NCBI RefSeq assembly: GCF_002742335.1
Contig: NZ_MDGR01000007.1
Coordinates: 3,848,501-3,912,500, forward strand
Length of the DNA: 64,000 bases
Direction: 5' to 3'
DNA from: Reichenbachiella sp. 5M10
GTDB taxonomy: Bacteria; Bacteroidota; Bacteroidia; Cytophagales; Cyclobacteriaceae
The notes beneath the pieces are model-generated. The model searched no databases and was not told where the DNA came from. It saw nothing but the letters and a program-made list of their open reading frames with translations. The first letter of the stretch is position 1, and each line of letters starts with the position of its first letter. The position numbers and the translations under genes were made by a program. Of this stretch, positions 49,905 to 56,148 are shown piece by piece.

Positions 49905-50888
49905 TTACCTGTCATCCTTCTTTTTAGTTCCGCTAGACTTTGGTTTGGCGATGGACTCACGCATCTCAGTATCTGCTTTGATATTGTCCATCTTGTAGTA
50001 ATCCATGATCCCAAGGTTACCATCACGAAACGCTTCAGCCATTGCCTTCGGTATCTCGGCTTCCGCCTCGATCACTTTGGCTCGTGCCTCTTGTGCTTTG
50101 GCCTTCATTTCTTGCTCTACAGCAACTGCCATCGCTCTACGCTCCTCTGCTTTGGCCTCTGCCACTTTGAGGTCTGCGGCCGCTTGATCCGTCTGTAGAT
50201 CTGCTCCGATGTTTTTACCCACATCTACATCAGCAATATCAATCGATAAGATTTCAAATGCTGTACCTGCATCCAGCCCTCTTGACAAAACCAACTTCGA
50301 AATCTTATCGGGGTTCTCTAATACATCCTTGTGTGTCACTGCCGAACCTATCGAAGTGACAATCCCTTCTCCTACGCGAGCCAAAATCGTGTCTTCGCCG
50401 GCTCCTCCGACTAGCTGAGTCAAATTGGCACGCACAGTCACTCGCGCTACAGCAATCAACTGTATACCATCAGACGCTACTGCAGCGACTCTTGGTGTGG
50501 TGATTACTTTAGGATTGACCGAAATCTGCACTGCCTCAAACACATCTCTACCTGCTAGATCGATCGCTGCAGCTTGATTAAACTCCAATGCGATGTTCGC
50601 CTTGTCCGCCGAAATCAAAGCCTTGATCACAGACGGCACATGCCCTCCTGCCAAGTAATGTGTCTCCAATTCACTGGAGGTCACATCTAATCCTGCCTTA
50701 GTTGCTGTAATCAATGAGTTGACAATAAGAGACGGAGGCACTTTCCGTATTCTCATAAATACCAAATCAAACAACCCTACTTTCACTCCAGAAAATTGAG
50801 CTGTAATCCACAAGCCCACTGGCACGAAGTACAAGAAGATAAAAAATCCTACAATGATTATCATTGCATAAATGGCATAATACATCAT
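49905..50888 (-). CDS. floA: Flotillin-like protein FloA
   Basis: This 327-residue FloA/UPF0365 protein has an N-terminal membrane anchor (residues about 4-26). A SPFH/band-7-like region follows ([33 protein letters not shown]). The C-terminal Ala/Glu-rich helix ([22 protein letters not shown]... to about residue 290) forms the flotillin coiled coil. FloA organises membrane microdomains and scaffolds signalling and secretion proteins in bacteria. The ATG overlaps the nfeD stop by 4 bp, making a typical nfeD-floA operon. Confidence 0.95.
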
Positions 50889-51406
50889 ATCTTATTCGTT
50901 ATAATTAGTTCCACGTATATTTTATTCCCATCCATCTTGGCAATCTTGATGGCCTTATTTTCTTCAACAAACTGTCCTGAGGAGCGCACCTCTACCACGA
51001 CGTCTCCAAAGTCTGCTTTGCCAATAGGCTTGAGCGAAGAACGAGTGACACCTTCTTGACCTAGTACCAAAGTACTTCCCAAGTTTTCATTGACTTTGGA
51101 TTGGATTGACCCTTTGAGTGCAAATCGACTCCATGTATTGGATTTGAAACTGTAAACTATTGCACACACTCCGACAGTCACCGAAGCAGCAAGCACCCAA
51201 TGTCCTGTCATCGTCCCAAAAAGCTCATAACTGTGATAGATACCATATCCACCCACCAAAAAACCAGCAATACCCACAATCGTCGTGCCTGGCACAAAGA
51301 CGATCTCTATAATAATCAGTCCGATGCCTGCCAATATGAGTAAGCCAATGATGATCCAGTCTATCAAGGTAAAGATTGTTTTATTTTGGGAGCCTAAGAT
51401 AGCCAC
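50885..51406 (-). CDS. NfeD-family membrane protein (short form)
   Basis: This 173-residue short NfeD lacks the N-terminal ClpP-like protease domain. It has three or four hydrophobic helices (about 15-90; [18 protein letters not shown]) and a C-terminal OB-fold (about 100-170; [31 protein letters not shown]). NfeD proteins bind flotillins. The start is GTG 51406; the overlapping ATG at 51408 is out of frame. It is the first gene of the nfeD-floA operon. Confidence 0.92.
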
Positions 51407-51518: not shown

Positions 51519-53003
51519 TTAGTATGCCTTTGCAAAAACAACACGCCCCTTGGATGGTGCTCCAGAATAGACACACTTGCCTTCTTCCTCTGGTTGATCG
51601 ATCGGAATACAACGAATCGTCGCTTTGGTCTCATTCTTGATTTTCTCCTCAGTCTCCGCGGTACCATCCCAATGTGCATAGACAAACCCTCCTTCTTCGC
51701 TATTGATGATAGTCTTGAATTCTTCGTATGTATCTGCCGTAAACGAATGCTCCTCACGATATGCCAGTGCTTTCTTATAAATGGTCTCCTGTATATTGTC
51801 CAAAAGTGCCGAAATATTCTGTGCAAAATCATCATTCAACTGCATGACACTCTTCTCCAACAAATCCCGACGAGCGACTTCTACAGTACCATTCGCAAGG
51901 TCCTTTGGTCCGATAGCAATCCTCACAGGTGTCCCTTTAAGTTCATATTCTGCAAATTTCCACCCTGGCTTATAAGTGTCTCTGTTGTCAAACTTGACCG
52001 ATACTCCCACCTTCTTTAGGTCTGCTTTGATTTTCAATGCTACTTCTGAGATTTCAGCCAATTGCTCCTCTCCCTTAAATATCGGTACGATAACAACTTG
52101 AAAAGGGGCCAATTTAGGAGGCAGTACCAAACCATTGTCATCCGAGTGGGCCATGATCAGCGCTCCCATGAGGCGTGTACTCACTCCCCATGACGTTCCC
52201 CACACATACTCCATTGCTCCGCCTTCTTTGTTGGCAAACTTGACATCAAATGCTTTCGCAAAATTCTGTCCCAAAAAGTGTGACGTACCCGCCTGCAGCG
52301 CTTTGCCATCTTGCATCAGTGCTTCGATACAATAGGTATCTTCTGCTCCAGCAAACCTCTCACTCTCCGTTTTGACTCCTTTGAGTACTGGCAAAGCAAG
52401 ATACTCCTCCGCAAATGTTGCATAGACATTAATCATTTGCACTGTCTCGTCTATCGCCTCTTGTCTGGTAGCATGAGCAGTATGCCCCTCTTGCCACAAA
52501 AACTCAGCTGTCCTCAAAAAGAGCCGTGTTCGCATCTCCCAACGCACCACATTGGCCCACTGATTGATCAACAACGGCAAGTCTCTATACGATTGGATCC
52601 AGTTTTTGTAGGAGTTCCATATCACAGTCTCCGACGTAGGACGCACAATCAACTCCTCTTCCAGTTTGGCTTCTGGATCGACGACTACTCCGTTTCCATT
52701 TTCATCATTTTTTAATCGGTAGTGTGTCACTACGGCACACTCTTTGGCAAAACCTTCTACATGATCAGCCTCTTTGCTCAAATATGACTTGGGTATAAAT
52801 AAAGGAAAGTAAGCATTGCTATGCCCTGTATCCTTAAACATCTCGTCCAGTACCGCTTGCATTTTCTCCCATATAGCGTAACCATACGGCTTGATGACCA
52901 TGCATCCTCGCACCGCCGAATTCTCGGCCAAGTCCGCTCGCTTCACTAATTCATTATACCAGAGCGAATAATCTTCGCTTCTTTTAGGTAATCCTTTACT
53001 CAT
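51519..53003 (-). CDS. proS: Prolyl-tRNA synthetase (short, eukaryote/archaeal-like type)
   Basis: This 494-residue class II synthetase charges tRNA-Pro. It begins [16 protein letters not shown] and shows motif 2-like [24 protein letters not shown] and motif 3 [16 protein letters not shown]. The anticodon-binding domain follows and the C-terminal extension ends [10 protein letters not shown]. The inserted editing domain of E. coli-type ProS is missing, as in archaeal/eukaryotic-like forms common in Bacteroidota. A TATATTTG box on the minus strand (53060-53067) with TTG 24 bp upstream is a likely promoter. Confidence 0.96.
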
Positions 53004-53121: not shown

Positions 53122-54552
53122 ATGAAACTACAAATCACTAAAATAATCGGCATCACATCAGCGATCATTCTCTTCGGGAGTGCCGCTCCTACCGTAGCGC
53201 AAGTCTACGATGACATGTACTATACGAGCAAAGATCGTGAGAAAATAGCCGAGAAGGAAGAAGCCAAAGCCAACGATTCGGAAGAGGTCATCACTGCATA
53301 CAACAATGACGCATATAACAATACCTATGCAGACAAGCAAGTCAATCCCGACTACCTCCAAAAATACAAAGACCAGACCAATACGAGTACAGCACAATCT
53401 TACGCTGATGCTCCTATCTATTCCCAATCGGATTATTATGTCGAAGGGTACGACGAGAATACCTCCTCCAACTACAACTCTCAACCCACAGGTACAACCA
53501 TAGTCAACAACTACTATGGCAACACCTCCCCATACTATGGTGCAGCTTACCCTATCTACAGCCCAGCATGGGGCATAGGGTACAACGCTGGCTGGGGCTG
53601 GTCCCTGAGCTTTAACTATGGCTATGGGTATGGATACGGAGGAGGATATGGCTACTATGACCCCTTCTTCTACGACCCCTTTTACAGCCCAATGTACTGC
53701 TACAACCGCTATAGATGGTATGGTGGATACTATGGCTATGGTGGAGGCTACTATCCTAGCTATGGGCACTATCCCGAATACGTCTATTCGAGCAGTTCCG
53801 CTAGAGGCCCTCGTTACAGCAGGGGTTCAACCGTATCCACCAACAACGGAAGGCTGACAAGACTCTCTTCTGTCGAACCTGCACGCAGCAGTGCTTCACG
53901 TAGTTCAAACTCACGTACGAACAGTGTACAAGATCGCACGGCTACCACAGCCAGCAGATCAAGTAGCGCGCGTACCCGCTCTACGGCAGCCACTAGTACG
54001 GCACGCACCCGTTCCAGTCAAAATGAATACATCGCTAGAGACAGATCGTACAGCAGCGCGAACACAAGCATGTCCTCGTCACGTGCTACTCGCAACAATA
54101 GCACGCGCCCAACCCCAACAAGTAATCACACGACGACTTCTTATCAAAGAGCCGCTACATCAAGTAGCTCTAACACCAGAACAAGCGGAACCAGCTCTTC
54201 GACAAACTCAACTCGTACTCGTACACAAAGCACGAACACTAGTCAACGCTCTAACAGCAATACAACACCGCGTAGAACAAGCAATGCGCCAACGCAACGT
54301 TCTAGCTACTCCTCCACTAGCAACTCCACTAGACGATACCAAAGCAGTGGAAACTCATACAACAGTGGGGCTAGCAACAGTGGATCTAGAACCAACTATA
54401 GCAATGGGGCTTCAAGCGGGCGATCAAGCAGCAGCTATTCTAGAAGCTCAAGTGGATCTTCTAGATCATCAGGAAGTAGTAATTCTGGAAGCAGTAGCTC
54501 TGGAAGCCGGTCGTCTGGGTCCTCTTCCTCTTCGAGCAGAAGTAGAAGATAA
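53122..54552 (+). CDS. Secreted low-complexity protein: Gly/Tyr-rich middle, Ser/Arg-rich C-terminus
   Basis: This 476-residue protein has a signal peptide (1-26, ending APTVAQ) and a charged N-terminal part to about 125. Residues about 130-220 are rich in Gly, Tyr, Pro and Trp (GYGYGYGGGYGYYDPFFYDP). Residues about 221-476 consist almost only of Ser, Arg, Thr, Asn and Gly, with SSSARTRS-like runs and no Cys. There is no lipobox and no type IX sorting domain. Composition suggests a disordered, basic, exported polymer-binding or self-associating protein such as a matrix component; function is unknown. The OMPP1 barrel gene follows after 54 bp. The repetitive DNA also opens long false frames. 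Confidence 0.85.
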   Translation: MKLQITKIIGITSAIILFGSAAPTVAQVYDDMYYTSKDREKIAEKEEAKANDSEEVITAYNNDAYNNTYADKQVNPDYLQKYKDQTNTSTAQSYADAPIYSQSDYYVEGYDENTSSNYNSQPTGTTIVNNYYGNTSPYYGAAYPIYSPAWGIGYNAGWGWSLSFNYGYGYGYGGGYGYYDPFFYDPFYSPMYCYNRYRWYGGYYGYGGGYYPSYGHYPEYVYSSSSARGPRYSRGSTVSTNNGRLTRLSSVEPARSSASRSSNSRTNSVQDRTATTASRSSSARTRSTAATSTARTRSSQNEYIARDRSYSSANTSMSSSRATRNNSTRPTPTSNHTTTSYQRAATSSSSNTRTSGTSSSTNSTRTRTQSTNTSQRSNSNTTPRRTSNAPTQRSSYSSTSNSTRRYQSSGNSYNSGASNSGSRTNYSNGASSGRSSSSYSRSSSGSSRSSGSSNSGSSSSGSRSSGSSSSSSRSRR

Positions 54553-54606
54553 CCTTAATCCCAATAGAAAACCTCAATCCCAACTCACGAGAGATACAAC
54601 ATAGCT

Positions 54607-56148
54607 ATGCTCAAGAAAAAAATTATCTCCCTCTCCCTGGTATTACTTAGTACGCTCTCAATTACTTCTGCTCAAGTGGCAGACGGGGCGTTTGGCTACT
54701 ACAATGACGCGTTGCTCTTCAGCAGGACATATGATGGGGGGACAGCACGGATGCAAGGAATCGGTGGAGCGCAAGTATCACTGGGTGGAGATATCAATGC
54801 TGCCTATGCCAATCCCGCTGGACTCGGCTCGATCCGTAGGTCGAGCATGGCTATGACCATGGCCTTAGACTTCAACAACACCCGATCACAGTACTTCGAC
54901 ACTACTACCGACGGCTTCAAAGCAAATTTCAATATTGCCAATTTGGGCATGGCATTTAGCATGCTCAAAGAAGCAAACGAACCCGGAGCATTTAGAGGAG
55001 GAACTTTTGCTATCACAGTTACGAGAAAAAACAATTTCCACAGCAACTATCGCTACGGTGGATACAACGACACAGAGGTTGGCAAATCCTCCATCGTCGA
55101 CTCCTATCTCGATCGTGCTTGGGGCATTCCAGAGGACGATCTTCAGGGTGACCTATTCGATGCATACAACCAATACTTGATCAACCCCTACATCGCGACA
55201 GACTCGCAAACTGGGCAAGATTTCACTGCCTATGACAAATTCATTGGTGACTTTCCTTTCCAAGAAGAAAATGTGCTAACACGCGGTGCCCAGTACGAGT
55301 GGGATTTCTCTGGAGGAGCCAATATCAACGACATCTTCTTTTTTGGCGCAGGTCTGGGCATCAGCACCATCAACTACTATACAGAGAGCACCTATACAGA
55401 GAGTGACTTCCTATACAACGGCCAGCCCGATCATGTTATCGATTTCTACAGTACCCGCAACACCCTACGAGTCAACGGTACAGGGATCAGCGGCAAATTC
55501 GGAATAATCGCTAGGCCAGCACCCTTTGTAAGGTTAGGCGCCACGGTCAACACTCCGACCTATTATGGCATGCGCGAAAAATCCTCGGAGGATTTTTGGA
55601 CCGTGTACAACGAACTTATAGACAATCCAGATTATGAATACTACGACGAGTACCTCTCCAATTCCCGGTATAGCCTCGTCACTCCTTGGAAATTCACCAC
55701 TGGAGCCTCCATCTTCATTGGAAAACGTGGGTTTTTATCTGCTGATGTAGACTTCATCAACTATGCAGAGTCCACACTACAATCCAATGATTTTGAAGTA
55801 GACGCGGACAATACTTCCATTCAAAACCTCTATACCAATACCATCAACTTTAGAATAGGAGGAGAATTTCGCATCAACCAATTTATGCTCCGAGGGGGCT
55901 ATGGAATAGATGGAGATCCTTATATAGACAGTAGTATTGACAACAGCATACAGAGGATATCAGGAGGGATAGGTTACAAAAATGAAGCCTTCTTCATCGA
56001 CTTGTCCGTGGTTCATACGCACTACGATTCACAACGGAGCCCCTACACGATATATAGTTTCGACGACCCTACGGACAACATCAGTCCTGTTGCAACCATA
56101 TCCAACAACAACCTCAATGTAGCTCTCACTGCCGGCTTTTCTTTCTAA
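54607..56148 (+). CDS. OMPP1/FadL-family outer-membrane channel
   Basis: This 513-residue outer-membrane protein has a signal peptide (1-21, ending SITSAQ). The mature N-terminus shows RTYDGGTARMQGIGGAQVSL and DINAAYANPAGLGSIRRSS, the FadL/TodX/OMPP1 pattern of Bacteroidota, often mislabelled hemin receptor. The rest is a long series of amphipathic strands ending NNNLNVALTAGFSF with a terminal Phe. It should pass hydrophobic compounds across the outer membrane; the ligand is unknown. It is 54 bp downstream of the low-complexity secreted protein and converges on aroK with a 10-bp gap. Confidence 0.9.
   Translation: MLKKKIISLSLVLLSTLSITSAQVADGAFGYYNDALLFSRTYDGGTARMQGIGGAQVSLGGDINAAYANPAGLGSIRRSSMAMTMALDFNNTRSQYFDTTTDGFKANFNIANLGMAFSMLKEANEPGAFRGGTFAITVTRKNNFHSNYRYGGYNDTEVGKSSIVDSYLDRAWGIPEDDLQGDLFDAYNQYLINPYIATDSQTGQDFTAYDKFIGDFPFQEENVLTRGAQYEWDFSGGANINDIFFFGAGLGISTINYYTESTYTESDFLYNGQPDHVIDFYSTRNTLRVNGTGISGKFGIIARPAPFVRLGATVNTPTYYGMREKSSEDFWTVYNELIDNPDYEYYDEYLSNSRYSLVTPWKFTTGASIFIGKRGFLSADVDFINYAESTLQSNDFEVDADNTSIQNLYTNTINFRIGGEFRINQFMLRGGYGIDGDPYIDSSIDNSIQRISGGIGYKNEAFFIDLSVVHTHYDSQRSPYTIYSFDDPTDNISPVATISNNNLNVALTAGFSF

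Follow-up and report, generated by a model that had tools for sequence, protein, structure and literature searches.

FadL-fold barrels are paired with lipoproteins in Bacteroidota, the closest described examples being BamG-BamH and BamG2-BamH2. According to the parts of the papers available to us, BamH is a surface lipoprotein whose tail is wrapped round a FadL-type barrel in the BAM complex (PMC12611786), and the pairing of a barrel with a lipoprotein is a theme of the BAM accessory pairs (PMC12578637). An excerpt of one BAM structure paper gives four FadL paralogues in B. thetaiotaomicron. Flavobacterium johnsoniae also has an adjacent lipoprotein and FadL homologue, Fjoh_4940 and Fjoh_4941. 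In the portion of the source consulted, depletion of TamL, which is linked to outer-membrane lipid composition, raises Fjoh_4940 2.6-fold and Fjoh_4941 5.6-fold in the membranes and lowers Fjoh_4941 in vesicles (0.4), and the authors suggest a functional link (PMC12045153). No other paper naming Fjoh_4940 or Fjoh_4941 was found by a search covering part of the literature.

The window considered here, that is, the whole analysed stretch of 64,000 nucleotides from Reichenbachiella sp. 5M10, encodes an exported protein, labelled SRP, directly ahead of an outer-membrane barrel gene, and the two form a well-supported conserved envelope pair across Bacteroidota. Literature word searches for this type of protein, over part of the literature, gave no match. 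The FadL/TodX family (OMPP1) has the barrel fold that is predicted for the window barrel; however, FadL is, to our knowledge, not known for genomic pairing with a disordered basic partner, whereas the window barrel has such a partner, and its transport role is putative. RcsF-OMP and the Lpp/Pal/OmpA wall tethers likewise contain an outer-membrane lipoprotein or barrel, part of which is disordered or reaches the wall, but SRP has an Arg/Ser tail rather than a folded wall-binding domain, and we know of no sequence relation between SRP and any of them.

Architecture of the SRP gene

The earlier note on this DNA described an exported, low-complexity protein made up of a signal peptide, a stretch rich in Gly, Tyr and Trp and a tail of about 250 residues, followed by an outer-membrane channel gene. 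The layout is as described (Table 1), export and low complexity are borne out, and the next gene indeed begins at the claimed distance and is predicted to encode a FadL-type barrel.

Table 1. Features of the SRP locus in the window
Feature	Position	Strand	Basis or remark
SRP (label used here), exported protein, 476 aa	53122..54552	+	unmatched in Pfam and NCBIfam at E up to 1
Signal peptide, cleavage by eye A26|Q27 (mature N-terminus Gln)	53122..53199	+	sequence; fits the Bacteroidetes Q-rule
Conserved N-terminal motif YDDMYYTSKDR (family form DD-x-Y-[YF])	53206..53238	+	alignment and both structure models
Gly/Tyr/Trp-rich block, residues 129-225	53506..53796	+	composition
Disordered basic tail, residues 227-476	53800..54549	+	composition, charge, pLDDT about 30-46 in both models
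AGGAGG, ribosome-binding-like site ahead of the SRP start codon	53111..53116	+	read from sequence
FadL-superfamily outer-membrane barrel (predicted), 513 aa, 54 bp downstream of SRP	54607..56148	+	synteny, structure prediction, Foldseek
proS (prolyl-tRNA synthetase), divergent neighbour marking the locus in the class	51519..53003	-	family match and synteny

The best 90 aa of the Gly/Tyr/Trp block contain 57.8% G+Y+W, and the mean for this block is 46.5% in 80 relatives, which are the best 80 of 112 from a conserved-motif scan of named genomes. The tail of 250 aa contains 89 Ser, 37 Arg, 37 Thr, 22 Asn, 17 Ala and 14 Gly but no Lys, carries a net charge of +22 over its last 180 aa and ends in SRSRR. 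Its composition is unique in the window, where the best 150-aa segment of SRP reaches 54% S+R and the runner-up 18.7% (53 ORFs of at least 160 aa). Serine is encoded in the tail by 45 AGY and 44 TCN codons, which belong to two unrelated codon boxes, and at least five Ser codons of each box are present in all 80 relatives (again the best 80 of 112); the only repeats in the gene body are two short ones with a 15-bp unit, present in 2.0 and 2.4 copies. Because of this unique composition, the use of both codon boxes and the paucity of repeats, the tail is attributable neither to chance nor to a DNA repeat.

Searched by sequence against the PDB, neither SRP nor the barrel had a match at E up to 1. 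Among 58 SRP members, NCBIfam gave only isolated weak matches (best E 0.0008), which are taken as chance, and no Pfam family was matched. We can conclude that SRP is a real, conserved feature without a name in the libraries searched. In the predicted structures, SRP is disordered, Gly/Tyr block included, except for the signal helix, low-confidence short helices within residues 36-85 and the N-terminal motif. Within the mature protein, both models predict this motif best.

A 237-aa frame at 53891-54604 overlaps the Ser/Arg tail on the same strand in another frame. It was rejected as a gene and is probably a by-product of composition, because a stop-free alternative stretch of at least 200 aa occurs in just one of the 80 relatives. 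Promoter and terminator scans gave chance-level results; the Bacteroidetes-type box TAnnTTTG occurs in the proS-SRP gap on the proS strand only. Most of the gap between the SRP and barrel genes is filled by a 19-bp tandem repeat (54547-54583, 1.9 copies, 88% matches).

The partner barrel

The blocks of the predicted barrel are mostly at pLDDT 90-98, and the top Foldseek matches are the FadL homologues 3dwo (E 1.5e-15) and 3pgs, an E. coli FadL mutant (E 3.6e-15); BamG (9hiv_F) was also matched. The barrel profile matches 3dwo in the PDB at E 2.2e-5. A FadL-superfamily fold is thus predicted for the partner. Such a fold is what would be expected if the pair served Bacteroidota as a FadL-type route for taking up hydrophobic compounds or lipids, with SRP as an accessory for gating or stabilising the barrel or for gathering substrate, and with the tail as a mere spacer. 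The rise of Fjoh_4941 and Fjoh_4940, which are probable counterparts of the barrel and SRP, upon TamL depletion (PMC12045153, in the part available) would also fit. We nevertheless consider this route rather unlikely, as a plain spacer leaves unexplained that nearly all sampled members keep a net positive charge and a basic C-terminus.

The barrel is also homologous to BamG, with an hhalign value of 97.6% (on the BamG side, 13 sequences recovered from 30 loci, the others having been removed by a strand filter). Together with the structural match to 9hiv_F and the common theme of barrel-lipoprotein pairing (PMC12578637, as far as seen), this could suggest an extra accessory pair of the BAM kind, alongside BamG-BamH and BamG2-BamH2, with a helper role in folding or sorting a subset of outer-membrane proteins. 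However, the barrel scores 28.4 bits against the BamG model and 25.9 bits in the genome search, far under the cut-off of 250, and another gene of the same genome scores 388.7 bits as BamG, so that the barrel was rejected as BamG. SRP further differs from BamH in having no predicted folded domain, and its lipoprotein relatives have no two acidic residues near the Cys. The consulted parts of the BAM structure papers (PMC12611786, PMC12578637) list no second FadL-type barrel in the complex, and an assembly role seems quite improbable.

When SRP is predicted with the barrel, the pLDDT of the motif block is 76, compared to 69 for SRP alone; the baselines of the two models differ as well, so this weak docking signal does not settle docking.

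Conservation of the gene pair

Among related genomes, SRP matches were obtained in 39 of 98, and 42 of the 43 matched stretches are free of internal stops; the exception, L021, has one TGA inside and is not recovered by the family profile. At loci L001-L030, 29 of 30 hold SRP by profile, and of these 29 the barrel is present in 26 and proS in 27 (L023, L029 and L026 are without the barrel, L026 without proS as well). In the set of 80 relatives, a proS match lies beside SRP on the opposite strand in every case, cleanly upstream in 76 and with the longest proS frame overlapping the SRP start in four. The FadL-like barrel gene lies downstream on the same strand in 78, and the contig ends in the other two. 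Within the N-terminal motif region, D30, Y33, D38 and R39 are invariant in all 20 rows of the closer-set alignment. In the window, the genes of a flotillin-like protein of the FloA type (E 1.3e-161) and of an NfeD-like protein adjoin each other at 49905-51406, next to proS.

A sequence-only profile search finds SRP in 28 of 295 Bacteroidia genomes, a low count that reflects the fast divergence of SRP, and the distribution was therefore measured from the barrel. The barrel profile matches 259 of the 295 genomes at E up to 1e-10 and, across the phylum, 95 of 148 genomes at E up to 1e-20; some of the weak matches among the 259 (e.g. E 1e-13 to 1e-25) may be paralogues. As low-complexity matches inflate E-values, membership of the SRP family was judged by position, N-terminal motif and layout rather than by similarity of the tails. 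For the same family, an hhalign comparison of the closer-set and class SRP alignments is not evidence, the window protein being in both.

The DNA upstream of 60 class barrels, chosen across families, was read, and 57 are preceded by a gene of the SRP layout on the same strand, which has a signal sequence, a Gly/aromatic block and a low-complexity end of net basic charge; L205, at a contig end, L232 and L236 have none. The DDxYY-type motif is found by a broad regex at the N-terminus of 56 of these 57 (exception L229), and proS is in the stretch read at 53 (of the four others, L235 and L241 are near contig ends). Eight of eight additional class loci also have an SRP-type gene, some with a variant motif (NDGIY). 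Outside the class, an upstream gene is present at 17 of 20 barrel loci, and most encode basic-tailed lipoproteins; those at L322, L333 and L336 are short and weak, and those at L327 and L328 have no basic end. A lipobox followed by Tyr-Thr (CYT; CYTQ in 10) begins 16 of these 17. Over both samples, the barrels without an adjacent SRP are those of L232, L236, L319, L331 and L335.

The homologue search that the earlier note had proposed has thus been run, and both composition and synteny with the FadL/OMPP1-type gene proved conserved (78/80 relatives, 57/60 class loci). The pairing persists without proS next door at L212 and L214, at L378 and L379 and at 14 of 17 loci outside the class, where proS is in the stretch read at only three, so the SRP-barrel link outlives the proS link. 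By its recurrence directly before the barrel gene, SRP looks like one half of a common, unnamed envelope pair and not a one-off secreted polymer.

A 956-aa open frame in G348 (L377) was considered as a natural SRP-barrel fusion and rejected, as the two frames are joined there through a frame shift and an ambiguous base within the repeats of the tail. The CYT starts outside the class (L319-L338) differ from the C-S.. starts common within it. A class consensus (L199-L258), R-x-RRF ... GYYD-x-YYTN-x-Y, lies in or before the Gly/Tyr block and may be a small folded element; it looks degenerate in the family of the window.

Composition and charge of the tail

The last 120 aa are net positive in all 137 SRPs scored (80 relatives and 57 class members) and in 16 of 17 outside the class, compared to a mean charge of -2.9 over the last 120 aa of the 52 other ORFs of the window, five of which reach +4. 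An Arg or Lys is among the last three residues in 74 of 80 relatives and 55 of 57 class members, where about 39% and 37% would be expected. The 80 closer tails contain 2227 Arg and 79 Lys, whereas at the same loci the proS products have 1859 and 3401 and the barrels 1620 and 1040, respectively. Lys is commoner in the 57 class tails (764 Arg, 211 Lys), which makes the strict preference for Arg a feature of the closer set.

Conservation of the tail sequence is poor, and the composition of the tail varies between Ser/Arg and Gly/Arg, with Lys in some members. Such variability would suit a tail that is an unselected low-complexity expansion on a short functional N-terminus. However, its presence at 57 of 60 class loci, the net basic charge throughout the 137, the kept basic C-terminus and the use of both Ser codon boxes make neutral drift very improbable.

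The layout of SRP resembles that of FUS-like Tyr/Arg proteins, and the earlier note had drawn a likeness to eukaryotic low-complexity proteins that self-associate or bind nucleic acid. The number of aromatic residues does not increase with that of Arg residues in the tail (rho 0.02 in 80 relatives, -0.27 in 57 class members), so a Tyr-Arg condensate has no support from covariation, and the comparison gained nothing. General O-glycosylation of the tail was rejected as well: its motif, D[ST][AILVMT], has no site in the window protein, in the 80 closer tails (last 180 aa) or in the 57 class tails (last 120 aa).

Membrane anchoring and orientation

By eye, the SRP of the window has no lipobox. A lipobox regex was matched by 12 of the 61 closer relatives in which the motif was found (L135 doubtful; 19 of 80 unclassed), by 52 of 57 class members (L253 and L254 probably false picks; L229 unclassed) and by 17 of 17 proteins outside the class (L333 at a doubtful Cys). 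Outside the family of the window, SRP thus appears usually to be a lipoprotein, as in about 50 of the 57 class members. The motif follows the lipid Cys by 10-14 residues in 61 of 64 lipobox-regex members, the exceptions being L225 (8 residues), L206 (17) and L254 (30), the last probably a false pick. In 48 of the 49 closer relatives classed as non-lipobox, [AGS]Q stands just ahead of the motif, as expected from the Bacteroidetes Q-rule (PMC5837995, seen in part).

The sidedness of SRP was addressed through two export signals. Pfam and NCBIfam hold models of the type IX C-terminal sorting domain, and no such domain was detected in SRP with either library at E up to 1. The type IX sortase N-domain, searched under a guessed accession, went unmatched in the genome of the window, compared to 28 of 40 overall, and was not used. 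The surface-export signal (LES) of Bacteroidota lipoproteins consists of acidic residues right after the Cys (PMC5080379, in the part consulted). Two or more acidic residues at positions +2 to +6 occur in none of 64 lipobox SRPs, and one occurs in four. As controls, SusD was taken as surface-exposed and BamD as periplasm-facing; at least two acidic residues are found in 16 of 30 SusD proteins (13 of 30 with a first-Cys pick) and in 0 of 29 BamD proteins (29 of 30 scored), 15 of which have one. The LES rule derives from other Bacteroidota, and absence of the signal is no proof of side.

Because the LES is absent in the lipobox relatives and the type IX domain was undetected, we place SRP at the periplasmic face of the outer membrane, as a reasoned prediction with real uncertainty; for the SRP of the window, which lacks the lipobox, this placement would follow from its relatives. 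On the same grounds, the free secretion claimed in the earlier note finds no backing, as the relatives sampled outside the family of the window are mostly lipoproteins that lack this acidic signal. A surface or secreted matrix polymer is likewise not supported, and the idea of a secreted polymer is probably wrong.

If SRP ended up outside, it could be attached to the barrel through the N-terminus while the cationic tail bound anionic polysaccharide, LPS or extracellular DNA, in line with the earlier note. The strong cationic charge and predicted disorder would suit this arrangement, for which BamH outside a FadL-type barrel is a precedent (PMC12611786, in the part seen); the undetected type IX domain and the acidic-residue counts in SRP and SusD argue against it, and we regard it as unlikely on balance.

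A proposed periplasmic tether

On the basis of the charge, the disorder and the predicted side, we tentatively favour, at somewhat less than an even chance, a periplasmic tether in which SRP is docked near the barrel and its cationic tail lies on an anionic envelope polymer. SRP would sit at the periplasmic face of the outer membrane, held by a lipid anchor in most sampled lineages; in the family of the window, where the anchor is mostly missing, the DDxY[YF] motif would take over by docking at or next to the FadL-like barrel. Both the Gly/Tyr block and the disordered cationic tail of 250 aa could extend into the periplasm, where the tail would bind, through many weak charge contacts, most likely peptidoglycan, as we infer, or otherwise lipid A phosphates. 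The pair would thereby fasten or arrange the outer membrane over the wall and set the position of the barrel. Linkage, Cys-motif geometry, tail charge, the basic C-terminus and the missing LES count for the tether, whereas the weak docking pLDDT, the window SRP without lipobox, the barrels without adjacent SRP and the three short, weak upstream genes count against it.

Implications

In broader terms, it is possible, though doubtful, that the pair represents an unnamed core Bacteroidota complex of a FadL-type barrel and an anchored protein with a disordered Arg-rich tail, conserved by composition rather than sequence, and that this complex links the outer membrane with the wall, or else organises the periplasm, by multivalent charge contacts. 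The 80 closer loci, the 57 and 8 class loci and the 17 loci outside the class form a natural series for charge-conserved disordered tails. The occurrence of the barrel in 259 of 295 Bacteroidia genomes, weak matches included, beside a neighbour without a Pfam family points to a likely housekeeping part of the envelope. Bacteroidota are a major gut and environmental phylum, and the SRP pair would offer a testable answer to the question of how they hold their outer membrane.
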